Positions 22,116 to 55,257 of a stretch of DNA of 64,000 nt are shown one piece after another (the stretch's first letter is position 1; the number at the start of each line of letters is the position of its first letter). Position numbers and translations under genes: made by a program. Under the pieces are notes generated by a model. The model worked only from the letters and a program-made list of their open reading frames with translations. It was not told where the DNA came from and ran no database searches. Source of the DNA: Solicoccozyma terricola (lineage: Eukaryota > Basidiomycota > Tremellomycetes > Filobasidiales > Piskurozymaceae); contig BCLD01000002.1 of assembly GCA_001600875.1 (NCBI GenBank), forward strand, positions 297,667 through 361,666, written 5' to 3'.

Positions 22116-22290
22116 TGAAGGCGGCCGTCAATATCAGACAGTCTCCCATTTGCTAGATAAGAAGATTAATCTGCAGGACCGCTCCTCGCTGATGTTTCAC
22201 AGTGATTAGGCAAACAGACAAATCATTCTTGTGCGTATAGAAGGGGCAAGACCTGTTTGTCTTTGTGGGGGGGTGCCCACGTGTTTTGCG
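22115..22290 (+). repeat. Dispersed repeat C, second copy
   Basis: Same orientation as 19365-19560. It abuts the broken end of the lipoxygenase gene, which makes it a likely rearrangement junction. Confidence 0.7.
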
Positions 22291-26767: not shown

Positions 26768-29505
26768 CTACCTTGTCGGTGCCGTCTCAATCCCCATCCT
26801 TGTACGAAGACCTGTGAAGACGTCAGAGCCTAGAGGTTTGGTGAGGATATCTGCAAGGTTGTCCTCTGTGGGGACGTGCAATAATTCCACAGTGTTATCG
26901 AGTACCTTGTCCCTGAGGAAATGATGGCGAATGTCAATGTGCTTGGATCGATCATGATTGACGGGGTTCTGGGAGAGTAGGATTGCCGCATTGTTGTCAT
27001 TTAGGATAGGTAGCGGTCCTGATATCCCTTGTCCAAGGTCCTCGAGGAGAAGTTGGAGCCAGATAGCTTGCCTTGTTGCATCTGCCGAGGCCATGTATTC
27101 CGCCTCCATGGTGGAGAGAGCGGTAGTCGATTGACGTCGTGATTTCCAAGCTACTGGTCCTCCAAATGTCTTGAAGAGATAGCCAGTAGTTGATCGCCGA
27201 GTGTCCAAACATCCTCCCCAGTCTGCATCTGCATACCCAAGCGTAATTCGCTTGCCTGATGTCCCATCAAATGTCAAGCAGAGGTCGGAGGTACCACGCA
27301 GGTATCGAAGGAGATGTCTTGCCGCATGGACATGTGTCTTATTCCATTTGCTTGCTGTGCGAGCCAGGATACCAGCAGCATGTGCGATGTCAGGTCGAGT
27401 GATGGTTGCTGCATACATGATTGATCCCACCAGAGAAGGGTATTCATCATGACGAGCAGCATCAAATTCTTCATCCGTTGCAGGTATCGACTTGAAGTTG
27501 GTCGGGAGTGGAGTTTTCACTGGCTTGCAGTCTGCCAGGTCAAAGCGGTCGAGTACTGACTCGATGTAGTGTTCCTGGGAGACAAACAGTTTCCTTTCAG
27601 GCCGGTTCCGGAAGACATTGAAGCCAAGGAAGTAGGAGACAGGTCCACCATCGGAGCATTCAAAGCGGCCATTGAGTTTCGTTTTGAACTCATTCAGCAT
27701 GGAGCGAGAATTGCAGGCAATGAGCTGGTCATCCACATGAACCGAGAGAAGAAGGAGAGAGCCGTTGGAGGTGCGAGTGTAGATGCAGGGATCAGCACGA
27801 GTTGGTATGAGTCCCTGTGAGCGAAGCCACTCATCCAGAGCTTTATTGAAACAGCGTGGAGATTGCTTGAGTCCATATAATGACTTTCTGAGCAACAGTA
27901 CCTTGTTCGCAGGGATGTTACCCCCTTGCGGTGGATCCAGATAGATGGTTTCCTCGAGTTCACCATTGAGGAATGCTGCCTTGATGTCTACTTGGTCGCA
28001 TTCCAGGTCCAGGTAGTTGACGAGTGAGAGGAAGACCCTGATGGAGTCCTTGTGAGCAACACCAGCATAGATCTCATTGTAGTCCACTCCCGCTAATTGC
28101 GAGAATCCCTTGGCTACCCATCTAGCCTTGAACGCAACGGGCTTGCCTGTTTCCCCATCAATCTTTCGAGTGAAGACCCATTTGGCTTTGAGTGCGCGAA
28201 TACTGGGTTGACGGTCTCCGATCTCCCAGACCTTGTACTTGTCCATCTTGGCCAGTTCGTCATTGATAGCTTGCTGCCAGTGAGGCCAATCGGCAGAGCG
28301 GTGAGCTTCCAGGAAGGTCTGAGGCGTTGAGGTGGAGATGAGTGCATGAGCCATCACCATCAGACCCGAGGGGTCAAAGCGTTCTGGAGCCTGTCGTTGG
28401 CGTTGAGGCCGGCCTGGTGGAGCTTCTACCGGTTGTGCCGGAGCGTCTGGGAGAGGGCTAGGTGCTGGTGACCTGTTGTAGCGCTTGTCCCATTGCCATT
28501 CCCAACCATGGTATTGTTGTTCAGGAAGATCATCCCCACTATCTGAGGAGGTATTGTTCTCGCTTAATGTGTGATCATCCTCCTGTTCCTCCACAGGTAC
28601 TGGATCAGGTGTAGATGTTTCTACTGCACTGATGATGTCAGAAGCCTCCATGTAGGCCCTGGTCTCATGGTTGTAGCGGATCCTGGGTGATGGTGATAAT
28701 GAATCCACTTCCCGTGGTGGTTTCGACTCAAACACCACATCCCTTGATACCACAACAGATTTCCCAGTCGGATCCCCTACGCGGTAGTTGTGGGTGCCTT
28801 CCTCATACGAGAGGAGCCGCCCCTCTCTGTAGCGTTGGTGAAGCTTGTCGGTGTTGCTATGGTCACGGTAGAAAGCTCGGCAGCCAAAGGGTTGCAGGTG
28901 ACTTGCATGGACCTCTGTTTGACGCCATAGATCCTCGGGGATTTTCTTCTGTGGTCCACAGGGAGTCCGATTCCTGGTGTACGCAGCATAGTTTGCTGCT
29001 TCTGCCCAGAACTCATCCGGCAGGGAAGCGTCAAGGAGGAGTGTTCGGATGGTATCCAGTAATGTGAGGTGAGTTCGCTCTACTCGTCCATTCTGAGCAT
29101 GTGCTGTTGGTGGTGTCCTATGATGTTCTATACGCTTGGATTGGAGGTAAGAGCGAAGGTCCTTGGAATCTTAATGGAGCAATCCAGTTGGTTCTCAACG
29201 AGGGTGATGTATTTGATCAAGGCCCGTCGAGTGTCGCTCTTCTTTTCCAGGAAGGTGAGGTGAACCTTCCTGGTGTAGTGATCATAGCATGTCAGGAAGT
29301 AAAGCTTCCCACCCAGTGATGGAGTGCGAGCAGGTCCCCAGATGTCAACATGCACAGAATAGAGGGGTTTTGATGCTCGCATGTTGGACTTGGGTGAAGG
29401 GAGTCTCTTGCCTTTCCCTTGAATGCAAGCAGGGCATTGGAATCCATATATGTCCTTCCGCACATGCCCCCAATCCACCTTGTTGTCCGACCGATGTGGG
29501 TTACT
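26768..29505 (-). pseudogene. Ty1/copia pol: integrase end, reverse transcriptase, RNase H; 5'-truncated
   Basis: Reading leftward: a GAG-pre-integrase segment (VRKDIYGFQCPACIQGKGKR) and integrase core (YSVHVDIWGPA, YDHYTRKVHLTFLEKKSD) at 29478-29170; the core end TAHAQNGRVERTHL near 29100; reverse transcriptase with DQVDIKAAFLNGELEETIYL and the LSVHVDDQLIA active-site strand near 27740; RNase H with YADADWGGCLDTRRSTTGYL, STMEAEYMA and KHIDIRHHFLRDKV, ending LADILTKPLG. The reverse transcriptase-RNase H frame is intact for more than 660 codons. One frameshift lies near 29160. Gag, protease and the first part of the integrase zinc region are missing beyond about 29505, where another repeat begins. 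Confidence 0.92.
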
Positions 29506-31965: not shown

Positions 31966-32406
31966 CTTGATTTTCAACCGTGCTTCGCGAAGTACCCTGA
32001 GGGAACTCGAGGGCTTCTCACATTTTTCCACCCAAGTCAATATATCATGTCGGAAGCAACCTATCCGTCCAACCCCCATAATCCTACCGGCTCGTCGGAA
32101 ACATCAAGTACCGATGCAGCAGTCCCGCATGCTGACTTGCTGACTGCATCCGCATCGGTTCAGTTGGATGTTCTTTGACCTGACTTTGTAGCTCGCTGTA
32201 CCTCCTGTCCCTGCTATTTCCGATGGGACCAGTCGAATGCATACAAGACCTCACAACGGCCACGGGGAAGGTTGATTCCGACAAGGATATAAAGACATGC
32301 TCTCCCAAGGATCGATCGCGCGTGCTTGGACTGGGAAACCCCTCTATATAACTCACGGCCTTGGAAGCATAGTCAAGAACCACAATTTTTTTTGGGTCTC
32401 CTTATA

Positions 32407-34763
32407 ATGGAACTTCCATTTTTCTTGGCGTTGAGGCTCGCTGCCATCGTCACTACTATCATGCTACACCGCATCAGCTCCGGATTAGTTCTGCTCGTCA
32501 TCATCTCCTTGACACTGCTCGACTTGACACTGTATCTCACTGTACCTCCCTTCTGCTACCTGATCTGGGATGCTCCGTGGAAAAGAACTCTCCGAGAGAA
32601 TGTTAATGTCGACCTTGCAAGACTAGAAACACTGGGAACCTTATTCCAGAAAGCAGACGAAGATTCGGATCCGTCAGCCGCAGCATGCCTTGCTGCGGAA
32701 ATGAAACGATGGGAGGACGACATTGAACGGTTGCGACAGGGTGATTTGGCCGCTCAAGCAGACGCGCACATTCGCCTGGCCCATGTGACCGAATGGCTAT
32801 GCAGTCAAGAGTCGCACACCAGCTCAGCGAGCGTTCGGTCACTGGCTTCGCGGGGCAATTTATCAGTATCGGCAAGCCCGATTTATATCATTCTGCGACC
32901 GTTTCCTTCAAGGATGGACTTTGCTCCACCGATTGGAACGGGGGTTACTGGCAAGACCTCCGTTCTGCACCAACCCGGAGCTGCAGTCCATGTTTGGTGA
33001 CAAGCTGAGGAGCACTTTGCTAGATCTCGGTCGACAATTCGCGGCGCATTCCCCCCTTCCCCAGAAGAAAGCAGACGAATACCGATTGGCCTACAATATC
33101 GCGAAACAGCTGGGACCATCGTCAACTCATTACGCGTCCAGATGGTGCCTGGAGTTGTTCCATACACTGGCTTTGACCGGCGACCCGGGAGCCAGGGTAA
33201 AACTATACGAGAACCGCGATTCGAGGTCACATCTGGAAGGAAACGGCCCGGACGCCATGTGGAACGTACACCGAGCGATCGGAAATTACTGGAGAGAAAT
33301 GAAAGACTGGCCTCGAGCCTCTGCGGCGTATGATCTCGCATTACAGAGCTTTCGCGAAACGTACTCGGCTGCTAACCCGTCGGGCCGGGAAAAATTGGTG
33401 GAGAGTGAAGGCCGACTTTACCTGAATGAATTAGCGGCGGGGGTATTTGCTCGATTAGGGGAGGCACACTATCTCAAAGCCGTGGTCGCTCTGGAAGAAG
33501 CAAGATGTCTGCGACTACACCTCCATGTGAAAGACAGCAGATTTTACCTCAAGATTCTTTGGAGGTTGTTCAAGCTGCAGCTGAGCCCGGATGGCCGTTG
33601 GTTTACGTACCACCCGATCTCTGGGACACACACTACTTCGCAATAACCGAACGTCGCTGCTACTACGAGAATGGTCCTCACTCCAACACCTACCGACTAT
33701 GGTCAGCACTCACCTGGAGAGGGACAGAGTCTCTACCGGCCCTGTCAACCTGCTTTCCACCGGGCTATGGATGCACCGTCCTCTCTCGCATCTACTGGAT
33801 AGACTGCGGAGGGACGGCCATGTGATCGGGATTTCATTGATCCTCTGTGGCAAATTGGTAGGGGTTCCTGCCCATGTAATGCGGTTCTATGAAGCCTGGG
33901 AGGACCCCTGTCATGGTGGCTGGAAACCAGGAGCCGTCTTTCCCTGGCCATTGTTTAGTGCTTGTCGCCTGGAAGACCCGGACGGCTGGAGGGATTTCTT
34001 GGATGAGTGTCCGGTACGATATTTTCCTTCGGCAAAGTTGGGCGCGCTGTAGGGCAGGCTACAGCTAGCGATCTCTTGTCACAATTGCAATCCATCAAAG
34101 CCGACTGAGTCACCTGGATGTTTCCCAGAGCAAGGGGATTTCGCATTCCCCACGCTCGAATGCGACAAGATCGGCGCGCTGTTTCAGCCTTTCTCATGGG
34201 AAAGGTTTGTAGGTCAGGAAGCCACGTTCAGGAATGAACAAATTCAAGTGGCTCTACCTGCTACGACGCACCTGGACCTTAACACGCACGCCCAAGCGGA
34301 TCCACACGACCCCTCAGCCGCATGCTTGCTCATGGCAGAAGGGTGGGTATCATTGCCGGAACTCCGAGCGGAACTACCTCGACTCACTGCCAGGGTAGTA
34401 TCATTATCAGCCTGTAGCAATGCAATGTCCGATCAAACCGTGCCGACGGAGATGCTCAACTTAGGGACTGTATTCCTAGAAAAAGGAGCAGCCTGCTGCA
34501 TCGCGTCACTCTGGCCGACTGACCAACTTGCCGCTGCGCTGTTCACGATCCAGTTCTACAAACTGCACTTAGGAGGTCTTCCTCCCTCAGAGGCCGCGTG
34601 GAAGGCTCAAGTGTGGTTGCGCGACCTGCAAATGGTGGAGGGAGATGACTGGCTAGACAACGACAACGATCTCCAAGTGGCACTTGCGCATTTCGGCTTC
34701 GAAGGATCGAAGCCATTTCCGCATCCGACCGAGTGGGCACCATTTATTGTCATTGGATGCTGA
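32407..34763 (+). pseudogene. Membrane-anchored TPR-CHAT protein, frames broken
   Basis: CHAT (caspase-HetF-associated with TPR) domains are clan CD cysteine proteases. The gene starts with two hydrophobic segments (MELPFFLALRLAAIVTTIML; SSGLVLLVIISLTLLDLTLY), followed by a helical region. A TPR-like segment with WREMKDWPRASAAYDLALQS lies at 33290-33350. The C-terminal CHAT part at 34248-34763 shows LNTHAQADPHDPSAACLL (candidate catalytic His), VVSLSACSNA (candidate Cys), GTVFLEKGAACCIASLWPTD and HPTEWAPFIVIG. Frames change near 32800, 33540, 33700 and 34050. Some changes might be introns, but I found no clean set, so it is probably a recent pseudogene or a badly sequenced gene. It has no NACHT part. 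Confidence 0.7.
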
Positions 34764-36077: not shown

Positions 36078-36284
36078 TCACTTGGCTAATTTAGAAATAT
36101 GATAGGAACCAGCTGGCGTATATGTGCCGACATCGGAGTCGTGGTAGGGCAATTGAATCTGCGAGATGTGCAGGAGGTTGAATAGGTTGATGACGTTTGT
36201 GTTCTTGGTTGAGAATTGGTTGGACGTGCCATCAAGGCACACCACAAGGTTGCGGATTCGAGCTGGAAGAGCCGCAATAGTCAT
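36078..36284 (-). pseudogene. DUF2235 hydrolase, N-terminal fragment
   Basis: From Met 36284 the minus frame reads ARIRNLVVCLDGTSNQF and KNTNVINLFNLL, then PYHDSDVGTYTPAGSY. This is the N-terminal strand of the DUF2235 (Tle1-like alpha/beta hydrolase) domain: VVC-DGT-N, NTNV and a Y-S/D-GVGT-type turn. The GFSRGA nucleophile elbow that should follow is not found downstream, so only the first exon or first 60 residues remain. The family is common next to fungal incompatibility-type genes. Confidence 0.65.
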
Positions 36285-36639
36285 CGTTCTAGACAACGGC
36301 GAAAATGTTTTCAATAGCATGAGGCCCCCCGCACAGACAATTGTTGCCAACGACCTTACGTAGACCAAGCCCTTAGCCAGGATGCTGATGGAATTCTCAG
36401 AGCCTCCGAGCCAGCCGACCTTACCGGAGATGCAAAACTGACCTTGTTTTAACGACTCAAGATGCTCCTTGTTCGTTGCTTTCTCTCTCTCTATCCTCAC
36501 TCTATTGTAAGGATACTACCAACCTACTCGATACTGGACGCGTCATCTCTCGTATGGCCTCAGATGCTACGCATCTATGTCCGGATTGGGATACGAATCC
36601 TTACTCGACTTCACTCTATTTCCTTCGCTCTCCTCTTAT

Positions 36640-37180: not shown

Positions 37181-38030
37181 CGGCAGGTCATGACGGGGCG
37201 ATGGGATGCTGCTGATTTACATCAAGGTGCTGGGATGGGAGAAATTGTCATGTGTGAGAGAAAGGGAAGAGTATGGAGACCGGTGATGTTGTTAGGAGGG
37301 TCAAGGATCATATTGGTCTCAAATATGGTACGTTTTGGAGATTTTTTGTTTCATTGAGCGGAGGTATTGGAGATGGGAGATGAGTGTTCCGGATCAACCC
37401 CACCCTGACCCCGACCTTGCGCTCATTCCTCACGTCTCTATCAGTCGTGCGCACGATTACTCTATTGCAAAGGCCTGCCTTCCGCTAGTGACGGCCTCTG
37501 ACACCAAGATCGTGCTCGTGATGCAATTCAGTACCGGGCAACGAATGAGAAGACAGCCTGTCTTTTGGTTTTGTTGCCATGCGGTTAAGACACCGTTCCA
37601 TAAATACTTTCGGAAGTCCTGTGAAGCTCGGCTCGCAGTGGTACTAAAGTTCCCAAAACAGGCTGTATTTTCATTGTTTGCTAAAAACCATGTTACACGC
37701 CTCCGTCAAAATGTGCCAACCGAATCGCGCGTTGTGCAACATGACTGAGGTCTTTGTCGACGGGCTGAAATTCAGGTAGGAGTTGCTGAAGGCTGTCTTT
37801 TCAATATTGCTCAGGACCTCGTCGCATCACGATGGCGATGATATTTCGATGGGACGCCGTCGCGGTTGGCTTGCTGGCGAGCTTGTACATCACGGCCACT
37901 TATAACCAGGATTGGTGACTGATGAATTCGTTCTTTCACCCACCTCGTGTTGTCCTAGGTCTCTCTCAACGCAGAGGGCTGCATGGCTTCCTTAACCTTC
38001 TATTCAATTTGTTTCTCGACACTCTATTCA
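37181..38030. other. No gene recognised; palindromic repeat copies
   Basis: A 137-codon plus frame (37335-37748) lacks any known motif. It is crossed by a copy of the AGACAGCCTGTCTTTT palindrome at 37549-37566 and a weaker one near 37655-37671, which speaks against a conserved protein. Confidence 0.3.
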
Positions 38031-38037
38031 CTGCACA

Positions 38038-38345
38038 ACAATCATTCGCGGCGGGGAATGATCGGCAGCTGGACGCAGCAATCGTATTCCGGCCAGTATG
38101 AATCCGGTTCACTGCGCCAGTGTGATACTGTGGGTTGTACTCATGAGGGGCGACACCGTGGGCAACCCCGTCGTGCGGCTGCACATCAACACGGAGATGA
38201 TGGCCCTTTCGCAGCATGGCCGTATTGGGGCTCAGCTCAATCTCGACGGGGTACACCTGACCCGCCGTTAAGGGCGCGTAATCCGCCTTGAGTTGCGTGT
38301 GTTTTGTTGTGACAAAGGTTGTAGGCAGGTGAAAGTATTGGGTAT
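38038..38345 (-). pseudogene. CocE/NonD-type acyl esterase, C-terminal fragment
   Basis: The minus frame gives LKADYAPLTAGQVYPVEIEL then RKGHHLRVDVQPHDG and EYNPQYHTGAVNRIHTG. After a one-base shift it continues VQLPIIPRRE stop. The V-YPVEIEL-P-x5-RKGH-LR-D block is typical of the C-terminal jelly-roll domain of X-Pro dipeptidyl-peptidase-like (CocE/NonD) hydrolases. The catalytic alpha/beta hydrolase domain is absent. It is a 3' remnant with a frameshift near 38085. Confidence 0.6.
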
Positions 38346-38369
38346 GGGTTACTTCTTCAATACAACGAC

Positions 38370-38600
38370 AATCTCTAGCTCGCTTACCCTGACTATATAG
38401 ATGCAGGAGTGGCTTTCGAACAATAGAGAAATCGGTTACCCTTCTGCCTAAGTCAACAATAGTGTTGTTGACCTATAACAATGGAATGCACTTAGATCCA
38501 TTGTTTCCCTGTCTCACTTCCTTATGTCTCACACTAGTCGTTGAGACATTCGTGCTTCCAACCTTCTTTCCATCTTGAGTCCTGTTGCCTATTGTTCTAT
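38370..38600 (+). repeat. Dispersed repeat E, first copy
   Basis: Shares CTCGCTTA, CTATATAG, TCGGTTACCCTTCTGCC, and GAATGCA with a following TTGTT-CC block with 62045-62235. The spacing and TATA-like TATATAG suggest remnants of LTRs of one retrotransposon family, but I could not fix their ends. Confidence 0.55.
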
Positions 38601-38925: not shown

Positions 38926-39717
38926 TAAGTCGCTGCTTCCAAAGACTCAAACCAGCGAGCGTTCATGCTTCCGCTCCATTCCTTCTAAACCCGAGTAAAT
39001 GACGCCATGTCAGTCAAGCTTAAAGCGTTGGCAGCAAAAGCTGATCTAGCGAAACGAATTTGCACCGGCGCCGAGAGTATAGTGCTCAACCATTTTGGTT
39101 GAAAATCACGTGTTTCAGCTCGCCCCTCAAATTCTCATCTCCCGACAATAGGCTCTTTTTGCTCTCTTTTTCTTTGGCTTTAAGACATGTATAGCATCTG
39201 GAACGGGTCTCTGTACCTGTGGGACATGGTTTTGTCATTGTCCCACCCAGTTGGCTCTCTCTTTTGTTCTTTTCAGTATATATATCTTCCTAGGGAATTC
39301 CCCCTCTTCGTTTGAAGGGTAGACAATTATTATATCTCATTTTTACACCTAATCGCAACAATTTTCGACGGGTACCATGGCACGGATGCTAGCGGACTCA
39401 CTCAGATGTACGTTTCGAACACCTTATGCGGAGTAAAGGCACCGTTATTTGCATGATTCGTGACACGGCTGATCCACTGAATGCATGCGGAAACAACACT
39501 TGTCCAGGCAAGCAAACGCCCAACACCTTTCGCTTGCATCCGCGTTCTGCCGCAGTTGCGGATTCATCGAACTTCTGTCGGTGCTCATTTGCCTACATGA
39601 GGATAGACTTCAAGGCATCAGGAAGCTTCGATACCTGTATTTGATCAGCCATACTCGTTACTTCTGTGATTCGGGGTGTTCTATCAGAAACCTTTTCCCC
39701 AACTTCTTACCACAGCA

Positions 39718-42700
39718 ATGGACGAGGCTCAGACGAGTCGGCATTTAGGAGTATCCGTACCGCGGCTCAATGATCTGCTGGGTCAAACCACTATCCATGA
39801 GGAACAGCGTGGCAATTTTGCCGAGGCCCGTCGCCAGGCCGAGTCGCAACTCGTTGAAATACAGGACCGACTTGCCGAGGCCTTGCTCACAAAAGGCATC
39901 GTACATTTTCTTCAGGGTGAAGCGGGCAAATCGCAAGCTTGTTTGAAGGAGGCTATTCAGCAAGCCAATACCAATCCTCGACTTCGAATGCAAGCGCTCG
40001 TTTACACCCTACAGGCCGTAAATTTGAGTTACAATTATTTTCCAAACGGCGGCGCTGCATCCGGGCGTGATATCCAGGTCCACTTTGACCTGCCGAGCTA
40101 CATGAAGACGTGGCAGCGACAGGTCGAAGCCTTGTGTGAACAGACTGGTGATTTATTCCCTGCCCAGCACTTGCTGTCGGACCACGTATTGAGACTTGGG
40201 CGCCGGGCTATTTCCGTCTCGATGCAGTCTGGACTGCAGATGCGGCAATCCAACGCCGAGTTCGCGCAAGCACTTGCGGGCGACCAGGAGGTTCTCGACA
40301 TCCAGCTAGCCGACCTGTTTTTCGGTGCAAAGCAGCACCAGCAGGCACATGACGCTTTGGAACAGGCCCTTGCGCTCTACAGGCGCGTCGGTGATCAAGT
40401 CGGTATGGCGAACTGTCATATGAAACGCGGAGACTGGCTCGTCGCACCGTTCGGCCCACCCGAAGTGTGGAATACAGCAATCACGGAAGGCTCCCAGCAC
40501 CACGAATTGGATTGGGAAATCGAGAAGGTTGAGTTCGATACTAATAGTTTCAACGTTGTTGGTGCCCGGCGCTGCTATGACGAAGCGCGCAAACTTTACG
40601 AGGAGGGTGGGGCCCAAAGGGGGTTGGCAGCCATCGCGCTGCGCTTTGGCTACCTGGCGACGATCGCCACCGGAGTGGAAGATACGGTCGAAGCCTGCTA
40701 CCAGCGAGCTGCCCAGCACATCATCCAAGCTCACGATTTGTATGAACATGCAGAGGATTGGCTCGGGTACCAGGTATCCCGAGCTCATCTCGCACTTTGC
40801 CGAATAGGCATGGGACAGACGCCAGACGAACGGGACACCGCGGTCCACATCGGGAAATGGGGTCGAACGGACGGTAGCTTCAGCTTCAGCCTCGGGCTTG
40901 GGTTGCTATTTGCTCGTATTGGTCGGCGATGGCTGGTACGTGAAGGAGATTACGAGCGCGCTCTATCCTGCTTCCGCCTTTCTGCGACGCTTTTCCAGGA
41001 GCTTAGGGCACCATTTTCGTATGCGCATAGTCTCGCGGACCAGATGAAAGTCTACGAGCTGCTGGGGGAGCACAGCGAATTTGTCGTGATGGCGGAGCGG
41101 GTCTGGGACGCATGCGGTGCCATTATGCGCGACCAGCAAGTTGTTGCAACATCGGCCCGGCTTCAAGCAGCCTGTGTCGCCTCTAGTATGCTACAGGCCG
41201 CCGTTGCACACGAAGATCCCGATGGCATCGCACGTGTTGCTGAGCGACTACGGCAGGTAGACAGCAGGCCAGACGCAAACCCTGTCCCTGATCAAGAAAA
41301 GGAGAGTGTTGAACGGTTCGAGTTCGTGATCGTCGAACGGGCCAAATTCATGGAGCCATTGTGCCGAGGGCTGCAATCACGCAATACAGGCGATCATGAA
41401 GAAGCCCAGCAGCACTTCGAACGCGCGGAACGACAGTGCGACACGACCCATGGCTTTTCTAAGGACTATATGCAGTCGGTAGTTTACGGCTACCAGCGAC
41501 GCATGGTCGCCGCTGTGGAAGCCTTTCGACGCTATCTGGAGCAAGAGTTTGCCGTTGCGGCTTGCATGGGTGAACATGCCGAGCTACAGCGAGACAAGGT
41601 ACGGCATACGCATATAGTAGCTTTGACATGGTACACTACCTTCAGATGCTATGATGATGCGGCGGCCTGTCTCAAGCAGCTAGAGAAAACGGAAGGACCC
41701 ACCTGGTGGAGGAACGACAGCCCTGCCTGGGAGAATCTGAGCCTCGCCGCCGAAGTGCACGAGGGGCAGGATCGCTGGCAGGAGGCATTGCAGATCTACT
41801 GGGAGGCTATAAAGGCGTTTGAAGAGCGGAGGAGCCAACTAACCAGTGACCTACTCAAACTCGCACTCGCAGGTGGCTCTAACCTACAGCGAATGTACTT
41901 TCAGACGGCGCGATCGGCGATCAAGGCATACAAGTCGGGCCTGGAACGCGGCGTGACACACGGTTTCTTGAAACAGGCCTTTGAGGCGATCGAACGTGGC
42001 AAGGCTCGCAGCCTGCTCGACCTAATGGCGAGCGGTGCCGCGTTTGCCGAAGGCGAGGCCGCCGGCAATACCCTGCTGCGCCGCTGGCGACGTCTCAACG
42101 CTCACCTGGCGACGCGCCGTGGGCTTCTGGCACAGGCGCATGCCCAGGCACTGCCGAACCACACGCACATCGGCGCGCTGCAGGACGAGATCTCCCAGGC
42201 CGAGGAGGAGCTGCGGACGAAGGAGGCCGAATTGTCAGCGGGGAATCCTGCGTTCCGCCATGCCCAAGCGGCTTGTGCAGACATCCTTGCGCTCGACGAT
42301 GTGGCCACCAAGCTGCCGCAAAATACAGTCATCCTGCAATACTCCTTCCTCGGGGAGGATCTGCTCGCCTGGGCCATCACGCGCAGTGGGATGATTCAGG
42401 TGCATTATGAAACGCTGCCTGAGAATCTGCTTGTGCGTCAAATTCGTCAATTCCACCAACAGTGTGAACAAGGAAGGCCGGTGAAGGCACTAGGGGTGGC
42501 TCTGGCGTGCACCCTGCTCGGGCCATTTGATGGGATCATCGACAGCCATAAGCGGCTGATTATCGTGCCGTTTGGAGTCGGACATCTCTTGCCTTTCCAC
42601 GCCTTGCCCCAGGGCAAACACCGAGAGCCACTGTCAGCGACTCATACCGTGACATATCTCCCCAGCGCCAGCCTGATCCAGTTCGAGCAACCGGCTTCAG

Positions 42701-45700
42701 CACAGTTGACTCGTGTACTCGCAGTGGGCAATCCAGCAAACATGCGAGGCTGCAGCGACGCTAAGCTGCAGTTGCAGGAGCTGCCCGCAGCCGCGACTGA
42801 GGCTGCCTATATCGCCTCTGTGATCCCTGGTAGCAACGCCCTGGTTGGCGAGCAAGCCACCGCTGAGGCAGTGAGCAAACGTATCAACGACTACCGCATC
42901 CTGCACTTTGCCACTCACGGAAATCTCGATGCCACCTTGCCTCTTCTCTCGGCTGTCTACTTGGCCAATGGGGACAAGCTCACTGTCTACGAGCTCATGG
43001 GGATGCACATAAGTGCAGAGCTGGTTGTGCTCAGCGCGTGCCGCACGGGGCAGGGCAAGGCCACCCTTGGTGACGATGTAGTTGGCTTTACCCGTGCGCT
43101 GCTCGCCGCTGGTGCTTGTGCAGTGTTAGTAAGCCTATGGCCCGTGGACGACGTCGCAACAAGCCTATTCATGGGCAAATTTTACCGAGAGTTGCGTGAC
43201 GGAAAGATGCCTCCTAGTGCCATACAGACCGCTCAGAACTATTTGCGCACTCTCACCCGAGAACAAATTCTCACCGAGCTGGATGCCCTTCAGGCTCACC
43301 TGGAGAAACGGGGCTACAGTCGAACGACCATCAAGCCGGTTGCAAGAGATATACTTGTTCATGGCAAAAATGGTGACGACTACAGTCACCCAAACTACTG
43401 GGCGCCGTTTGTTCTGGTTGGAGCCTGGACGAGATGTAAGTTGCTCTTTGGTCAGCTTTTCCGCTAACGCGAGCTCAATGCTCAATCCCCACCCTGGAGC
43501 TCATCAGTGCCCAGGTCCCTTGCCGCAGACGGGAATACCCTGAAGATGGATGAAAAGGACCGCCAATGCTTAGAGGATTTGCGGGCATCTGATCCTCGGC
43601 AAGAGAAGTCCCGGATAGAGGAGACCAACGGCGGCCTGCTGCCCGACTCATATCGCTGGATTCTAGAAACTCCCGACTTCCGACGATGGCGCGATGAACA
43701 AGAAAATCAACTGCTCTTGATCAAGGGAGATCCCGGCAAGGGCAAGACGATGTTGCTTTGCGGCATTATCAACGAGCTGGCGGAGTCGACTGCGAAAACC
43801 GGCCTGTTGTCCTTTTTCTTCTGCCAGGCCACCGACTCACGGATCAATAGTGCCACGGCCGTGCTGCGCGGCTTGATCTACCTGCTGATGGACCGTCAGC
43901 CAACTCTCATCGGTCACGTCCGGAAGAAGTACAATCATGCCGGCAAAGCACTCTTTGAGGATGCGAATGCATGGGTTGCACTGTCCGAGATCCTTACAAA
44001 CATTCTCCACGACCCAAACTTGATGAACATCTTCTTGATAATTGACGCGCTCGACGAATGCCGGACAGACTTGCCGCAACTTCTCGACTTCATTGCAAAG
44101 ACGTCATCTGCATCTCATCGCGTCAAGTGGATCGTCTCTAGTCGCAATCGGCCGAACGTCGAGGAGCGGCTTTGGAAAACCGGGCGGAGTGTTAGGCTCT
44201 GTCTTGAGTTGAATGCGGAGTCTGTGTCAAATGCCGTTTCCGCCTACATCGGACATAAAGTGCGTGAGTTGGCGGAGCTAAAGGATTACGACAGGCAGAC
44301 AGAAACCGCCATCCGGACATGTCTGTCCTCAAATGCAAACGACACATTCCTCTGGGTGGCTTCGGTCTGTCAACAACTGAAGACGACCTCACGATGGAAC
44401 GCGATCCCGAAGTTGAAAACGTTTCCCCTCGGGCTCGATCCTCTTTATCAGCGCATGCTCCAGCAAGTCTATGATTCCGACTACGCCGAAGTCTGCAAGC
44501 ACATACTTTCCTTCATAACCGTCGGTTACGGGCCAATCACTCTGCACGAACTGACCTCCTTAGTCAGGCCCGCGTTTCCCTCCAGTGATCTCGTATCATG
44601 GGAAGAGATGGTCGGGCAGTGTGGTTCGTTTTTAACAATTCGAGAAGGCACCGTCTATTTCGTGCATCCGTCCGTGAAGGACTTTTTGCTGAAAAAAGCA
44701 TCAGCTGAACTATTTCCATATGGAATGGAAGAAGTGCACCATGCAATCTTTTCGACATCCGTCGAGGCCATGTCCAGGACACTGCGACGCGACATTTATG
44801 ATTTAGGCACTCCGGGCTTCCCCATCGATGAGGTCAAGCGGCCTGAGTCAGATCCCTTGACTACGATAAAGTACGCCTGTGTTTACTGGGTGGACCATCT
44901 CTACGATGCCAGCAGGAGACCCGAACATGACGTCGACCTCGGAGATAATGGCCCCGTTTATCAGTTCTTGAGTGGAAAATTCATTTACTGGCTAGAGGCT
45001 CTCAGCCTTCTCAGAAGAACCTCCGAAGGGTTACTTGCAATGACAAAACTGGAGGGATTACTCCAGGTAGGTGTGACGAATGGACTCGGCCAGATCTGTG
45101 ACCTACACTAACCATATCCCAGCGAGAAACACATGGATCCCAGCTAATGGTACTTGTTCGCGATATGTGCCGATTCATCCTGTACTTCAAGTTGGCAATA
45201 GAGCACATCCCCCTTCAAGTCTATGCTTCAGGACTTGTCTTCAGTCCTGCCCGCAGCCCGACAAGAGAACTATTCAAGCTCGAGGAACCCGGATGGATTA
45301 CGACCAAGCCAGTTATGCAAGACCATTGGGATGCGTGTTTACAGACGCTTGAAGGGCATCGTGAGGGTGTCCGCTTTGTCGCCTTCTCGCACGACTCGAA
45401 GTATTTCGCGTCCGCATCATGCGATAAGACCGTCAAGATCTGGGACGGCTGCAGCGGCCAATGCCTACAGACGCTCGAAGGGCATCGCAACATTGTCAAC
45501 TCGGTCGCCTTCTCGCATGATTCGAAGTATCTCGCGTCGGCATCGGACGATAAGACCGTCAAGATCTGGGACAGCGGCAGCGGCCAATGCCTACAGACGC
45601 TCGAAGGGCATCACAACATTGTCAAGTCGGTCGCGTTCTCACACGACTCTAAGTATCTCGCGTCAGCATGGGACGATAAGACCGTTAAGATCTGGGATAC

Positions 45701-47201
45701 TCGCAGCGGCCAATGTCTACAGACGCTTGAAGGGCATCGCTACGGTGTCAACTCGGTCGCCTTCTCACAAGACTCGAGGTATCTTGCATCGGCATCGGAT
45801 GATAGCACCGTCAAGATCTGGGACACCGACGCCGGCCAATGCGTACGGACACTTGAAGGGCATCGCGCCCTAGTCAATTCGGTCGCCTTCTCGCACGACA
45901 CGAAGTATCTCGTGTCCGCATCATTCGATAGGACCGTCAAGATCTGGGACGCCAGCAGCGCCCAATGTCTACAGACGCTTGAAGGACATCGCTACAGCGT
46001 CAGTTCGGTAGCCATCTCGCACGACTCGAAGTATCTCGCGTCTGCATCATTCGATAGGACCGTCAAGATCTGGGACGCCAGCAGCGCCGAATGCCTACAG
46101 ACGCTTGAAGGACATCGCTACAGTGTCAGCTCGGTCGCCTTCTCGCACGACTCGAAGCATCTCGCGTCGGCATCATTAGATAGGACCGTGAAGATATGGG
46201 ACACCGGCATCGGTCAAGGCGTACAGACGCTTGAAAGGCATCGCGCCCTTGTCCGCTGGGTAGCCTTCTCCTCCCTCGACTCGAAGTATGTCGCTTCGGC
46301 ATCGTACGATCAGACCGTCAAGATTTGGGACACCGGAAGCGGTCAATGCCTACAGACGCTCGAAGGGCATCACGACGTTGTCAACTCGGTCGCGTTCTCG
46401 CACGACTCGAAGTATCTCGCGTCAGCATCGGATGATAAGACTGTCAAGATCTGGGACAGTCGCAGCGGCCAATGCCTACAGACGCTTGAAGGGCATCGCG
46501 CCCTTGTCCTCTCGGTCGCCTTCTCGCTCGACTCGAAGTATCTCGCGTCGGCATCATTCGATACGACCGTCAAGATCTGGGACGCCAGCAGTGGCCAATG
46601 CCTACAGACGCTTGAAGGGCATCGCAAAAGCGAGGGTGTCACCTCGGTCGCCTTCTCGCACGACTCAAAGTATCTCGCGTCGGCATCCTTCGATAAGACC
46701 GTCAAGATCTGGGATACCCTCAGCGGTCAATGCCTACAGACGCTTGAAGGGCATCGCACCTTTGTCAGCTCGGTCGCCTTCTCGGACGACTCGAAGTATC
46801 TCGCATCGGCATCGGACGATGGGACCGTCAAGGTCTGGGACAACGACAACGGCCAATGCCTGCAGACGCTTATGACTGACAAGGGACTCCTCCACAACAT
46901 ATCGTTTGATAATATCAACTCATGCCTCCACACTGATTATGGGAATGTTGTTCTCGATATGTCATCGTCGGCGTCGGACGCAGCGCCAACCGAGACTGTT
47001 TATCAAATACCAGGTCGGCAAGGCTATGGAATCAGCTCGGACAGGAAGTGGATTTTATGGAATTCAAGGAATATCCTGTGGCTCCCACCGGAGTATCGGC
47101 CATCAAATTGGGCCGTGGCGGCGTCATCGATCTGCATCGGCTCTGTCTCGGGACGCGTGTTGATATTCAACTTTGTTGAGCATCCGTCTTTTGTTCCTTA
47201 G
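39718..47201 (+). CDS. TPR-CHAT-NACHT-WD40 NLR-like protein, three exons
   Basis: Predicted STAND receptor with a protease effector domain. Exons 39718-43435, 43529-45066 and 45123-47201 join in frame (2,444 residues). Intron 1 (93 nt) has a GTAAGT donor and a GCCGCAG acceptor; intron 2 (56 nt) runs GTAGGT...CCCAG. The helical TPR-like region is about residues 30-900. The CHAT domain is about 980-1238, with ILHFATHG (His1067), LVVLSACRTGQG (Cys1108) and HPNYWAPFVLVGAW. The NACHT domain has Walker A GDPGKGKT (about 1306-1313), Walker B FLIIDALDEC (about 1409-1418) and the fungal linker PLQVYASGLVFSPA. Twelve near-identical WD40 repeats fill about 1824-2330, then a tail. If intron 1 is not spliced, a TPR-CHAT protein of 1,249 residues would end at 43467 and a NACHT-WD40 protein would start at Met 43546. 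A TATATATAT stretch lies at 39277-39285. All three coding blocks are intact. Confidence 0.85.
45336..46856 (+). repeat. Coding tandem array: 12 WD40 units of 126 bp
   Basis: Twelve in-frame units of 42 codons (the eighth 43, the eleventh 44), each starting CLQTLEGH or a close variant and ending TVKIWD-x4. A degenerate thirteenth follows at 46857. Units are nearly identical at DNA level, so the array has been homogenised by unequal exchange or gene conversion. Differences concentrate in the residues right after GH and in the residue before D-x-TVKIWD. Confidence 0.95.
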
Positions 47202-47927: not shown

Positions 47928-48735
47928 GGTAGGGGTACCCCGCCTGTGCTCTTCCAATGTTTACGGTCACAAATCCACAAATCCGCAGAACTGCGGCTTC
48001 AGCTCGTTCGCTTCCTCAAGCCTCTTCACCTGTTCATTTTTGCTGAGGCTAGGCAAGGTGCTGCTGCCGGTTTTTCTAGATATTCAGCCGCGTTCCTCCC
48101 TTTGTCCTGCCGGTTCATTCCACCCATCCTACAGATTCAGGCTCTAGCCGCGGCACAGTACACAACACCACGACCGACGTCTTCTCCAGCTCGAATCTTC
48201 TCAGCCTCGTCACTTGGAAGATCATCAACACCAACAATGACAGCAATCACAGCAATGACACCATCAGAGAGACGCCGGTTCCCGACAAGACGCAGGAGCT
48301 TGCCGAAAAGCGAATTGAAATGCGGCAATACACCTTGCCAGCCTTCCGACCCAGCCGCTATTGCAAATCCCCCTGAAAGTTCTCAATTGTGTACCGCAAG
48401 CTGTCCGAAATTACCTTGCGGAGACAGATGACACGGCATACCCTCTATTCTGGAACAGGGACGCGGAAGCACACAGATAAACCGCACATCTTGCTTCCAA
48501 AGTGCCACACTTACAAGGCTATGCATTCTCGGCGTTCATTTGATCTGGTAGGCTGGCGGCTTCAGGCGCTCTGTGATCCGTGCCAACCCCAAAAGGCGGA
48601 AGGGACCCGTTAGGGAAGGTCGTAACAGCCTCCCCTTCACCTCTTTACCCATTTCATCCCTCCTCGAGCCTCACCATTCCTCATTTGACCTCGACTTTGT
48701 TTCAGAAGAACCGAGTCACTCCCACCGCCGCTGGG

Positions 48736-50649
48736 ATGTATAAGCGCATCAAGGGCCGCGCTTTGCTGATCGGCAGCCCGCTACATGGTCTCAGCGGTGT
48801 CAGGAACGATCTTGACGCAATCACTGACGTGTTGGAAGCTCGGGGATTCGGCGAGATCCAGGAATGTTACGATGAGAATGCCACACGAAAAGGAATCATT
48901 GATGCGTGGAATGAGCTCATTTCGGAAAGTACGGCTAACGACGCAGTTGTGGTGTACTATTCGGGACATGGGGGCCTGATGGACATGACGGAGGGCGGAA
49001 ACAAACCGGGTCAACAATGGCGTTTCCAGTTCATCGTCCCCATGGACTACGACGAAACCACCGAAGACGACTTTCGAGGTATTGCCGACCTGGAGCTGTC
49101 ACACTTGTTGCGAAAGCTCACGGACAAGACACAAAACGTCACGGTCATTCTCGATTGCTGTCATTCAGCTCGTATGGCACGTACTCGAGGTCCAGTTGCC
49201 AAGGCGCTCCATGACGTTTCTGAAAGAGGAATAGACACACACGTGAAGAAGTTGCTAGCCAGTGGCGAGGTTCAAGGGTTTACCTTTGCCCAGGGCAATC
49301 CGCATGCGGTGCGAGTAATGGCGGCCGCTGCGACCGAAAGTGCCTACGAGGATGACGACCCACAGGGCAAGCGGATGGGGGTGCTCACGGAGGCGCTGTG
49401 CAAGGCGCTCAAAGACGCCGGTGGCAGTAAGATCTCGTGGCCCATCGTTCTGCATCGAGTGCAAGACCGCGTGGCCGTGACCTTTCCCCAACAGCATCCA
49501 CGGTTGGAAGGGCGCGTTGACCGCTATATATTCGACAACGAGGAGGCAAAACTCACCTCTGTCACGCTGTTCATATCTCTGAAGGAGGGCAAATTGCAGA
49601 TCAACGGAGGGCTTTTGGTTGGAGTTGAAGAGGGCGACACCTACGCCGTCAAGGAAACGGTTGACGCTGACAAGCAAATGGGTACGGCGAAGGTTGTCCA
49701 TGTTTATGGCCTGCACTCCACGGTAGCCCTCGAATATCAAGGCGGGCACACTCGCATTCCGACAGGAGGGGCTCCAGCGTTTCCCATCGGCAAGGGAATC
49801 CGTTGCTGGACAGTTTCCGTGGACGGCGAAACTACGGTTATTAGAGCGCTTCGAGACCGTATCAGCAATTCGAACCTAGTTCGCGTCTTCGGCGACGAGG
49901 AAGACCCACCGTTGATATCCGTGGTACAGAACGATCACGAACTTGTTTTGAACGACTCTCAAGGAGTTCGCCTGTTTTCCTGGCCAGTAGGGGGAGTTGC
50001 CTCCCACACCAGCAGGATCAAGCGGATTGTGAGCCGTATCGAGAACATCGCCCGCGCACAGCATCTCCTCCGGCTCAAGGGCGGCGTCGGTGAGAGTTCG
50101 CTTGATTCGAAACTAGCAATACAGTGGGGCCTGGTCGAGGGTGGTAATCCAGTCTCGCTCCAGCTCGAGGGAGAGTCACTGGTTGAGGAGCAGCAGATCT
50201 ATGTCTCGCTGCACAATCAGGGCCAAAGCAAGGTCTATGTTTCCATATTTGACATCGGCATCACAGGCATCATTACGCTGTTAACCTTTGGCTTCACCCA
50301 CGGCGTCGAGCTGTCGCCTGGCAAGTCGTATCTTCTCAGTGAGCGTGACGACCCCTTGGAAGGGTTGGAGCTCGGGTGGCCGGACGAGGTCCCCAGAGAC
50401 CTCATCGGATGCGAAGCGATAGTGATGGTTGTGACTGAGGACGAGCTGGACCTGAGGACCCTCGAAACAAGCAGAGTGCACCAGGTTAGGCGAAGTGCAG
50501 ACGGTGATTCCGAACTCCTAAGGATCGTCGACCAGCTCGGCCATGGTGGTGTTCGTGACCTGAGGCATCGCGGGGGCAAAGTAGTTCGGTACGACGTACA
50601 GTGCATTCATTTCACGCTGTCACCGAAGAAGCTGCAAGATTCGTCGTGA
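48736..50649 (+). CDS. Caspase-like (C14) cysteine protease with a long C-terminal region
   Basis: From Met 48736 the single exon encodes 637 residues. The p20-like domain starts KGRALLIGSPLHGLSGVRND. It carries the catalytic dyad in VVVYYSGHGG (His78) and VTVILDCCHSARM (Cys142, before H-S), and a later IVLHRVQDRV helix. The family cleaves after basic or acidic residues depending on the subgroup; specificity cannot be read here. Residues about 270-637 are not a known domain to me. One stretch (KVYVSIFDIGITGIITLLTF then GVELSPGKSYLL) resembles the beta-sandwich following bacterial caspase-like domains. Lack of introns and that architecture resemble bacterial genes, but transfer is only a possibility. 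It lies 1.5 kb downstream of the NLR-like gene in the same orientation. The ATG chosen is the first after a possible splice acceptor. Confidence 0.9.
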   Translation: MYKRIKGRALLIGSPLHGLSGVRNDLDAITDVLEARGFGEIQECYDENATRKGIIDAWNELISESTANDAVVVYYSGHGGLMDMTEGGNKPGQQWRFQFIVPMDYDETTEDDFRGIADLELSHLLRKLTDKTQNVTVILDCCHSARMARTRGPVAKALHDVSERGIDTHVKKLLASGEVQGFTFAQGNPHAVRVMAAAATESAYEDDDPQGKRMGVLTEALCKALKDAGGSKISWPIVLHRVQDRVAVTFPQQHPRLEGRVDRYIFDNEEAKLTSVTLFISLKEGKLQINGGLLVGVEEGDTYAVKETVDADKQMGTAKVVHVYGLHSTVALEYQGGHTRIPTGGAPAFPIGKGIRCWTVSVDGETTVIRALRDRISNSNLVRVFGDEEDPPLISVVQNDHELVLNDSQGVRLFSWPVGGVASHTSRIKRIVSRIENIARAQHLLRLKGGVGESSLDSKLAIQWGLVEGGNPVSLQLEGESLVEEQQIYVSLHNQGQSKVYVSIFDIGITGIITLLTFGFTHGVELSPGKSYLLSERDDPLEGLELGWPDEVPRDLIGCEAIVMVVTEDELDLRTLETSRVHQVRRSADGDSELLRIVDQLGHGGVRDLRHRGGKVVRYDVQCIHFTLSPKKLQDSS

Positions 50650-51507
50650 ACTGGGACCGTGTACTGCAGGATTTCCGCTGCGACGGCGGAGTCGCAATGG
50701 CCATGCCCGTCACTACGGGGAACATCTCACCAACACGGTTAACTGTTAATGATCTAATCCCTGATATGTTAGCTTGAATTCGTGTGTAACAGAAGTTGAT
50801 CAATAAGTATCACAATGAGATTGCACCATTGCTGAAGGTTGGTTGAGGTTGAGTCCCACAAGCAACTAGCTAAAAATATTTGATCAAATTCGAAAAAGAG
50901 ATTGAACTTTTACCATCACGCGGTATACGTGGTACCTAGGGCTTCCAAGCCACTGCCCCGGGACATTCATCCAAGTCGGGCGAACCTATGTCACCTTGTA
51001 AGAGTGCAAGGCTAGGACTCGTGATAACAATGAGGGTACGGGCTTGCATCAGGTTGACGCGCCAAACCAAGTTGGCATCTGGGCCCATGAACGGCTTGCG
51101 CGTCGACGAGTCTTCCCCCTCGTTTAGACGCAGTCGATTTACTATTGGTCCCGAGGTACGACAGGGTTTTCGCCACCACCCCTAATGAGCAGATTAGCGG
51201 ATGCGACGTGACGCTAACAAGCAGGCTTCGTCACTTCGTCGCAAGCATTTATCCATGGCGCACGTCCCATTACTTCACTTGGAAGCCCCTCTACTTCACT
51301 TGACAATCATTTGCTCCTCGCTCCATAGCTGAATTTCTGCGCGAATGCTGTCCAAAGTCATCCACCGCCTGGGATTTACTACAGTTGCGGACGGTCTACA
51401 GTCACCAGGCGGTCCTGTAGCCACGTAAGCCTTCCGCCCGGGGGGGGGGGGGGGGGGATAGGCGAATACTAGGTCCGCCTGGGTTCTGATGTGTGCTTCT
51501 TTCACAG
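50650..51507. other. No gene recognised; contains an 18-G run
   Basis: Intergenic sequence with no motif. Bases 51440-51457 are 18 consecutive G after CCC. The last 30 bases end in a TTCACAG acceptor-like site leading into the hydrolase pseudogene, so a lost upstream exon of that gene may lie here. Confidence 0.35.
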
Positions 51508-52490
51508 AATCATATTTGTTCATGGACTACGAGGAAACCCTCAAACCACCTGGACCGATCAGAGTGTCAAGCCGAAGAAGGATCTTCGAAGGGTCGTCCA
51601 AGATTAGCAGGGCAACAACGGAGGATCTCGGTGAAGGTGGATTCTTCAGAACCTTCTTTGAGAGAGCTATAGAACTGAGGAGAGGCAATGATGAGGCAAT
51701 TTCAAGCAAGGTCGGGTTCTGCTGGCCCGTCGATGCGCTTCCTCAGAGAATACTAAATACTCGAATTTACCTGTATGGATACGGGGCCGACGTCATCGCA
51801 CCGTTTAAGGCAAGGAGTAAAACGGTATCACAAATCATGGCAACAACTTCTTGGTGCTGCCCTCGAGCGGATTGTTCCATTGGATAATCCCCTGATTTTC
51901 GTGGCGCATAGCTTGGGGGGGTATACTGGTTAATATGTAAGTGCAAGCAAGCTGTCAGGGTCAGGGAGAGACACGTGCTTGGTTGCTCATCCGGTTGTAT
52001 TAAGGTTCTGGCTCTATCGAGAGGTCATCCACAGCCTCAATACGAAGCCGTCTATGACCTCACCAGACATATCGTATTCATGGGTACATCTGATCGTCGA
52101 TCCGGGTTCGCCGGTCCGGGAGGAACGCTAGCCAGAATCGCAAAGGCAGTCGCTGCACAGGATCCGAATCTGCACCTACTATCTAGTCTAGAGGAGTGCA
52201 GTGAAATCCTGGCTCGAATCCACGACAGCTTTGTGGCACTGTTGAACTCACCACATTTGGCCATACACTCGTTTCAGGAGGACCCGAGGCGTCTACGGCG
52301 TTGCGGGCCCTGCTGGCCAGCGAATTGTTGACTCTGACTCGTCAAAGGTCGGCGGCCCTAACGAGATCGCAGAAACCCTTCCAACAAATCACCTGTCATT
52401 GGTGCCGTACAACGGATTGAACGATCCCAACTATATATCTGTTTCGGAAACGTTGGTCCGGATTGTAGACCGGATCAGTCAGCCAGAGCT
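51508..52490 (+). pseudogene. SesB-like alpha/beta hydrolase, multiply frameshifted
   Basis: SesB-type hydrolases occur in fungi as N-terminal domains or genomic partners of NLR proteins. Parts seen in order are IIFVHGLRGNPQTTWTDQSV (51509), CWPVDALPQRILNTRIYLYG with YGADV (51720-51790), LDNPLIFVAHSLGG with the nucleophile elbow (51880-51917), a GTAAGT donor, VYDLTRHIVFMGTSDRRSGF (52041-52100), LARIAKAVAAQDPNLHLL (52131-52180), and PTNHLSLVPYNGLNDPNYIS, holding the histidine region (52382-52440). At least four frame changes occur (about 51590, 51830, 51918 in a G run, 52290). Only some could be introns, so the gene is dead or poorly sequenced. Oxyanion HG and GHSLGG-like motifs are recognisable. 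Confidence 0.75.
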
Positions 52491-53360: not shown

Positions 53361-53529
53361 AAGCAGCGAGAGCAAGCGAGACCTGATCTGCGATCCATCT
53401 TTTGCCGAGAGAGTGACACAGATAGGATCGCTGCAAATCCGCGCTTCCGGACCGTAAATGATTCCCGTGAAGAGAACCTCAATAGGTCGAACAAGGGTGA
53501 GGTATTGGAGGAGGAGCTTGGAAAGGTGA

Positions 53530-55257
53530 ACACGGAGGAAACGAGGCAGGAAACAAGAATTGGGATCAGGCGACCGGCCTCCTGATGGACCACCGTGGCG
53601 ATCCTCATGGTCACCTGTGGACAGTCACGCTACCCTCTAACTTTCCTGATGGCTACTTCCAGTACAACTTTATCGTCTCCTTTCGCAACGGTAGTGTTCG
53701 ATGGGTAGGCGACCCGTGTGGCAAGCATGGCGGCGACAGCAACGACAATGCTGCCTTTGTCATGGGTGGCAGCCCCCTCACCGTCACCCCCCTCAACCCC
53801 ACGTTAGGTCGCCCCAAGCCGCGGGACATCATCGCCTATGAGTTGATGATCGACGACTTCACTCGGGACTATCGCGGCGACCGCGCTCCAATCGACGCTG
53901 TCATCGACAAACTCCAGCACATCAAGGAACTGGGAGTCAACGCCATCGAGTTCATGCCCTGGATTGCTTGGCCAGACTCGGACAGCTTCAGCTGGGGCTA
54001 CGATCCGATCAACTATTTCGCAGTCGAGAACGATCTCGTCACAGGCCCCGGGGAGCCGCTCGACAAACTCTCCCGCCTCGGCAAGCTGATCTCCAAGTGC
54101 CACGAGGAGGGGCTCATGGTCATTCTCGACATCGTTCTTCAGCATCCTTCCCACTGTCGGGATACGGGCGGCTTCCCCTACTACTGGCTCTGGCAGGACG
54201 CCGCAGATTGCCCGTTCGTAGGCTCCTTCACAAACGCCTCGACGTTCGGCAGCCTATCGCGCTCGACTACCACAACACCTGCACGCTCGAGTTCATGCGC
54301 GATGTGTGTGTCTACTGGATCGAACAGTTCAAAGTTGACGGATTCCGTTTTGACCAGGTCTCCGGCTACCACAACCCAGACTTTCCACACCAAGGCGCAC
54401 CTGCCCTGATGAGCTCTCTGCGAGAGTACCTCAACCGTAACGAACTCTATGATTTTCCGCTCATCATCGAGGACAAATGGGACTTTGGCGTGATTGCTGA
54501 CACGAACGAGATCGGTGCGACATCCGGATGGTTCGACATGTTCCGTGCCTGCCCGTTCAATGCCCTTGCCTTCAACAACCACCTGGGGACCGAATACGTC
54601 CGCGTCCTGAACACAGCACGGGATTTCAACTTCCCAATTGGCCCGACGATCTACATCGACAACCATGACCATGCGAGCATTGCCCTCCGTGCAGGCGGTC
54701 GTGGCCAGTGGTTCCGCACGCAACCATACGCGATCGCTCTTGCCACCTGCTCTGGCAATCTCCTCCTGCGCAACGTCCAGGAGTTTGCCCAGGAGCTGAA
54801 CATGCCCGAAAACGGCCAAGAGCCCCCTGATCGCGTCCAGTCCCGCCCCCTCAAGTGGGAGCTGGCCACCGACGACACCGGTCGCTCTCTCCGCGGAATC
54901 TACAAGCTACTATTGGACATGCGGCGTCAGCATCCGTCGCTTGGCTCACCCAATTTCTACCCTAATGACTACGACCAACAGTGGGTCCACTTCAGCTCAG
55001 AAGGGTATGGGATAGACGTCGACAAGCAGGTCGTTATTTACCGCCTCTGGGGTAATGATGTCGACGGCGTGCTGGAGCGGTTCATCGTCGTCCTCAACTT
55101 TTCCGACACCCGTCAGTTTGTCGACGTCCCTTTCCCCGCAAATGCTGTTTGGACCGATCTCATCAATAATAACACCCTCCAGGACGTCAACGGCTTCCGG
55201 CTGTTCAACTTTGGCGTCCCTGACAATTGGGGCTGCGTCTTCTTCCGGAAGGGCTAA
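53530..55257 (+). pseudogene. GH13 alpha-amylase/branching-enzyme-like protein, 5'-truncated, one frameshift
   Basis: GH13 enzymes hydrolyse or transfer alpha-glucans through a TIM barrel. The frame opens with a CBM48-like piece (NWDQATGLLMDHRGD, HLWTVTLP, GYFQYNFIV), followed by IIAYELMIDDFTRDYRG, GVNAIEFMPWIAW and region I ILDIVLQHPS. Near 54250 one base is missing: TFG must shift frame to read PIALDYHNTCTLEFMRDVCV. Then come region II VDGFRFDQVSG (nucleophile Asp), region III LIIEDKWDFG (acid Glu) and region IV IYIDNHDHAS, with a C-terminal beta domain to the stop at 55257. Region I ends LQHP rather than the usual VxNH, and region IV lacks the standard spacing, so substrate type is uncertain. 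The N-terminus is cut near 53360 by repeat R1. There are no introns. The frameshift may be an assembly error. Confidence 0.85.

Follow-up and report, generated by a model that had tools for sequence, protein, structure and literature searches.

The window analysed (the whole stretch of 64,000 nucleotides from Solicoccozyma terricola) probably contains one three-exon gene for a predicted receptor of 2451 residues of the fungal NLR type, in which a TPR-CHAT protease, a NACHT domain and WD40 propellers would be carried by the same chain. We give this reading a probability of about 0.7. The domains, the intact catalytic dyad, the in-frame splice signals, a candidate acceptor of the same phase in paralogous loci and the predicted CHAT fold all speak for it. 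A preliminary description of this DNA had put forward both the fusion and a mechanism: the fusion is retained here as a gene model (from domains, dyad, splice signals and paralogs), and the mechanism is kept as a proposal, in which splicing in vivo, oligomerisation, activation of the protease, its substrate, cell death and sensing are inferred.

Gene model and introns

Three open reading frames lie head to tail on the forward strand: 39670-43467 (1265 aa), 43468-45111 (547 aa) and 45102-47201 (699 aa). Together with the Pfam matches they agree with the three open blocks previously described at 39718-47201, i.e. TPR-CHAT, NACHT and 12 WD40 repeats. Exon 1 (39718-43435, + strand) encodes the TPR-CHAT protease, that is, residues 1-1239 and one base of codon 1240, and is defined by a single open frame, by Pfam matches (TPR_12 and CHAT) and by full-length homologs. 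Intron 1, on the same strand, extends in the preferred model over 43436-43507 (GTAAGT, CTAAC, CAG) and contains the stop codon at 43465-43467. Exon 2 (43508-45066, +) encodes the NACHT NTPase and the region after it, and is based on Pfam (PF24883 and PF05729) and on an open exon at a second locus of the genome, L100. Intron 2 (45067-45122, +; GTAGGT, CTAAC, CAG) is found exactly where it had been placed, and exon 3 (45123-47201, +) comprises the 12 WD40 repeats, the C-terminal tail and the stop. The WD40 array itself occupies 45340-46871 (+) within exon 3, where Pfam recognises 12 WD40 stretches and TRF reports a period of 126 bp with 12.1 copies.

Two of the CAG acceptors of intron 1 preserve the frame, 43507 (72-nt intron, 2451-aa product) and 43528 (93-nt intron, 2444-aa product), and a third, 43514, does not. 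The donor at 43436 and the in-frame joining stand as originally described; the acceptor is likely to be 43507 instead of 43528, judging from the AG phase in the paralogs. The distance from the branch to the acceptor is long (44 nt by script count for 43507). A search of both strands of the 64 kb window for GTAAGT-CTAAC-CAG, with the gaps kept within bounds, gives one hit; shuffled sequence contains the pattern 0.20 times on average, and it is modest evidence by itself because 13 of 100 shuffles hold at least one match.

The stop inside intron 1 leads to a different reading, in which there are two adjacent genes: one for a TPR-CHAT protease that stops at 43467, and next to it a NACHT-WD40 gene of its own, with its start at the ATG at 43546. 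Close TPR-CHAT relatives (P0241-P0244) stand alone and end at a WAPFILVG-type motif, and when exon 1 is read on into intron 1 the frame likewise stops soon after such a motif; NACHT-WD40 halves are also found elsewhere without CHAT. On the other hand, the 78 bp between the stop and this first in-frame ATG on the NACHT side seem short for a fungal promoter and leader, and in the paralogs the NACHT frame is open for 120 and 51 nt upstream of the ATG, with sequence common to the window, which fits an exon beginning further 5'. The reading as two genes is therefore regarded as quite unlikely. For 114 of the 120 NACHT relatives listed, BLASTP similarity sets in between residues 1245 and 1264, and exon 2 begins at residue 1240. 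It is more likely that TPR-CHAT, NACHT and WD40 are joined on one putative chain by the in-frame splice model, which has paralog support.

Paralogous loci and the acceptor of intron 1

The genome holds further copies of the NACHT-WD40 half: one at L100, 75% identical and with a stop-free exon, and one at L101, 67% identical and with four stops. At the site of intron 2, L100 presents an intron-like stretch with GTAAGT, CTAAT and CAG, and in L101 the GT donor is absent. The window, L100 and L101 have in common a block ('CGGGAAT..AAGATGGATGA'), upstream of which the candidate acceptor AGs are located: 38 nt before the common ATG in the window (which corresponds to 43507), 41 nt in L100 and 44 nt in L101, all of them in a single phase. 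The acceptor at 43507 is preferred because L100 and L101 also carry an AG close to the corresponding position and in the same phase. Further AGs are present in every locus, and 43528 has the same phase as 43507; as each locus has several AGs, the matching phase could be partly due to chance. The comparison is thus suggestive, and intron 1 likely ends at 43507 rather than at 43528.

Upstream of the common block the three loci differ: TPR-CHAT is found in the window, a SIR2-like sequence in L101 (SIR2_2, E 1.4e-14) and another frame in L100. The SIR2-like domain lies at 5873-6676 of L101, on the - strand, upstream of the broken copy of the NACHT-WD40 cassette. The upstream frame of L100 has no match in Pfam, NCBIfam or PDB at the thresholds used and is phosphorylase-like by eye. 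These arrangements suggest an exchange of effectors at a phase-1 intron common to the three loci.

It is also conceivable that the gene is fused, but dead or unexpressed, as a remnant of shuffling in a repeat-rich region. Exon 2 as query gives 18 matches in the genome, three of which span nearly the whole exon, one of the three with stops, and upstream of the receptor gene lie a partial CHAT sequence and the reverse transcriptase of a retrotransposon; all of this would be in accordance with decay. Nevertheless, the spliced model has about 7.35 kb of coding sequence free of stops, with catalytic and Walker motifs intact, and such a remnant is very improbable.

The TPR-CHAT half

Profile searches for CHAT, NACHT and WD40 recovered all three (Pfam CHAT 5.7e-64, NPHP3_N 9e-35, NACHT 2.8e-16 and WD40 twelve times). 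The CHAT domain (42493-43425, +; residues 926-1236) covers positions 4-289 of the 289 of the PF12770 profile, and CHAT and TPR are the only families that match exon 1 in Pfam at E 0.001. The dyad that had been read from the sequence is intact: His1067 (42916-42918, +) in HFATHG and Cys1108 (43039-43041, +) in LSACRTG show no variation in two alignments, of 12 and of 39 sequences. A phmmer search of PDB with exon 1 gave no match at E 0.001. The predicted structure of residues 681-1249, the final 10 of which derive from intron 1, has a pLDDT of 87.9 and matches the TPR-CHAT protein Csx29 (Craspase) and separase, so the His-Cys dyad is placed in a predicted caspase-like CHAT fold.

The NACHT and WD40 half

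Exon 2 carries the Walker A motif GDPGKGKT (43726-43749, +) and the Walker B-like motif LIIDALDEC (44035-44061, +); both are present as claimed for a NACHT domain, and Pfam supports the assignment. A NACHT domain that has both Walker motifs, followed by a C-terminal array of 12 WD40 repeats with a putative role in sensing (joined via intron 2 in the model), is the arrangement of fungal NLRs of the NACHT type.

The repeats are mostly 42 residues long. For the ten repeats of exactly this length (those of 43 and 44 residues were left out of the comparison), the mean pairwise identity is 76% in amino acids and 83% in nucleotides, and at least five residue types are found at positions 10, 11, 13, 31, 38 and 39 only. 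In the HNWD sensors, according to the part of PMC12222747 available, WD40 identity ranges from over 80% to 100% and a few positions are under diversifying selection; the repeats described here are similar and somewhat more diverged.

A search with the junction (residues 1040-1480) matched 796 proteins. The 120 listed show identities of 47-71%; many are named as HET-E/HET-D-like, and those with an organism name are all fungal. A HET-like motif is found in 52 of the 120 by a simple pattern, and inspection of the 13 longest N-termini by eye suggests HET, phosphorylase-like and further types. From sequence comparison, the NACHT-WD40 half belongs with the receptors of HET-E/HET-D type.

Rarity of the CHAT-NACHT pairing

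At E 1e-5, exon 1 has no match among the 120 NACHT relatives listed. CHAT relatives were collected with residues 740-1239 (best 120 of 153 matches) and with the whole of exon 1 (best 120 of 882), each search having scored about 8000 candidates; among the 234 distinct proteins listed there is no match to the NACHT part at E 1e-3 and one to the WD40 part, a cyanobacterial protein. As the 120 NACHT and 234 CHAT relatives listed show no similarity to the other half at these thresholds, the fusion was not met a second time. CHAT is also missing from the 25 families (out of 92) shown by a Pfam scan of 19 of those NACHT proteins, a listing too short to establish its absence.

Within the genome (23.9 Mb, 33 contigs), the profile search gave 25 CHAT matches, some of which may be pieces of one gene, and 9 NACHT matches. 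Only one of the nine, that in the receptor gene, is located less than 10 kb from any CHAT match, and the second closest NACHT and CHAT matches are separated by 16.5 kb; 15 of the 25 CHAT matches are on contig C2, at 168-566 kb. In thirteen stretches of 9.9 kb taken around CHAT matches (L009-L021), tblastn detects nothing like exon 2 at E 1e-4, a search that a different NACHT family would escape and in which L016 and L020 are about a quarter N. The same order of domains in other genomes, the survey of which had been suggested, has thus no second example among the relatives listed: the pairing of TPR-CHAT with this NACHT looks rare.

Origin of exon 1

The nearest proteins to exon 1 come from metagenomes, with 51% identity over 99% (best 120 of 882 matches). 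Named bacterial relatives are 30-39% identical and named fungal relatives 32-38% among the matches listed, and because these ranges overlap, identity cannot separate a bacterial from a fungal origin. Exon 1 groups with four proteins in a tree of 65 rows (SH-aLRT 97); in a tree of 29 rows it is placed on unresolved branches, with a fungal clade (90/97) on one side and the rest (67/99) on the other. In the latter tree the fungal label was also given to P0245, P0123 and P0128, records without organism name; the bacterial label was given to P0288 and P0345, which equally lack one. The composition of P0241-P0244 (Ser, Cys and Lys low, Ala high) is that of most bacterial rows, and the named bacterial row P0297 has fungal-like values.

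A broader proposal is that the NACHT-WD40 half acts as a cassette that takes different effector exons at the phase-1 intron, and that in this case it took an entire TPR-CHAT gene that had come recently from bacteria. This is offered tentatively, and we regard it as rather doubtful; if true, a bacterial protease would have been turned into the executioner of a eukaryotic receptor by exon capture.

Comparison with known systems

The preliminary description implied that a CHAT effector on a fungal NACHT receptor would be new. This does not hold: in the available parts of the reviews PMC9815663, PMC10197012 and PMC12881547, a CHAT protease is reported for dozens of NLRs or NLR-like proteins of fungi, some of them beside gasdermins. 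Excerpts of PMC9815663 include CHAT (PF12770) among the N-terminal NLR domains and describe NLRs with CHAT or S8 near gasdermin genes; for the HET-Q1 gasdermin, a serine protease is named in the portion of PMC10197012 at hand. As far as these excerpts go, CHAT is the N-terminal module both in those proteins and in the receptor predicted here, an arrangement proposed to be a contracted, one-chain form of a pyroptosis-like pathway; some of the former adjoin gasdermin genes, whereas none was found near the latter.

The receptor resembles HET-E, HET-D and HET-R of Podospora (HNWD) in its NACHT-WD40 subfamily, its 42-residue repeats and its few variable positions; nevertheless, the N-terminus of HNWD is a HET domain, and here TPR-CHAT takes its place, with no HET by Pfam. 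Csx29 of Craspase (type III-E CRISPR) is a separate protein that works with Cas7-11, as PDB titles indicate, and its NCBIfam model NF041237 scores 51.7 bits here, below the cut-off of 300. In the available text of PMC11138114, hetB of Aspergillus fumigatus is likewise a large fungal CHAT protein (1,327 residues), involved in heterokaryon incompatibility; that text mentions no NACHT-WD40, and hetB is set apart by this description alone. Two cyanobacterial metacaspase-NACHT-WD40 proteins (PMC2853523, seen in part) also combine a caspase-like domain, NACHT and WD40 on one chain, but they are bacterial and their protease belongs to the p20 metacaspase family, not to CHAT.

The class is already known, since fungal CHAT NLRs and cyanobacterial caspase-like NACHT-WD40 proteins have been reported. 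The word CHAT is absent from the main text of the 2014 survey PMC4986451, and the exact order TPR-CHAT-NACHT-WD40 was not found in the literature searched, a search that did not extend to the primary gasdermin-protease paper. From its sequence, the receptor looks like a rare member of the reported fungal class.

Genomic neighbourhood

About 5 kb upstream of the gene, frames at 32293-34763 (+), broken or split by introns, end in a partial CHAT (34053-34763, E 3.2e-23), and further upstream there is a retrotransposon reverse transcriptase (RVT_2; 26768-29170, -). Fragments of a lipoxygenase (21216-22127, -), a Tle1-like phospholipase (36078-36515, -) and PepX_C (37966-38472, -) are also present. 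Downstream, two short frames at 51462-52331 (+) resemble a SesB-like hydrolase by eye, with no Pfam match at E 0.01, and two overlapping frames at 53501-55257 (+) have alpha-amylase matches.

The gasdermin profile PF04598 has no match in the genome at E 1, and no gasdermin is found among 14 chosen flanking ORFs (4 + 10). This negative is weak because these ORFs are a subset of those flanking the gene and the sensitivity of the profile to fungal gasdermins is unproven.

Proposed mechanism and implications

In the proposed origin, a TPR-CHAT gene would have come to sit 5' of a HET-E-type NACHT-WD40 cassette and would be spliced onto it at the phase-1 intron, an intron that seems to serve further copies of the cassette for different effectors. 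By analogy with NLRs, the variable faces of the WD40 propellers would recognise a non-self cue or a host protein that has been modified, NACHT would exchange nucleotide and oligomerise, and the clustered or unlocked CHAT domains would cut a substrate, for which a gasdermin or some other executor of death is plausible, leading to regulated cell death.

An alternative, which we consider unlikely and still worth some weight, is that the fused receptor is real and its CHAT domain acts on a substrate other than gasdermin, such as the caspase-like protein encoded just downstream, or serves solely to regulate the receptor. Csx29, the closest fold, cleaves a regulator and not a pore former. A peptidase C14 (caspase) ORF at 48577-50649 (+) adjoins the receptor gene 1.4 kb downstream, with His and Cys motifs (YYSGHGG and DCCHSA) that look intact; its product may be a partner, or the ORF may lie there by chance. 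The link, however, is adjacency alone, with no conserved pairing shown, and the pattern documented in fungi is that some CHAT protease genes cluster with those of gasdermins.

The sister loci with other upstream sequences offer a direct test of effector exchange at an NLR intron. If it is expressed as a single chain, the receptor would provide a compact model of NLR-gated proteolysis, in which sensor, switch and caspase-like protease could be studied with one gene and one catalytic mutant.
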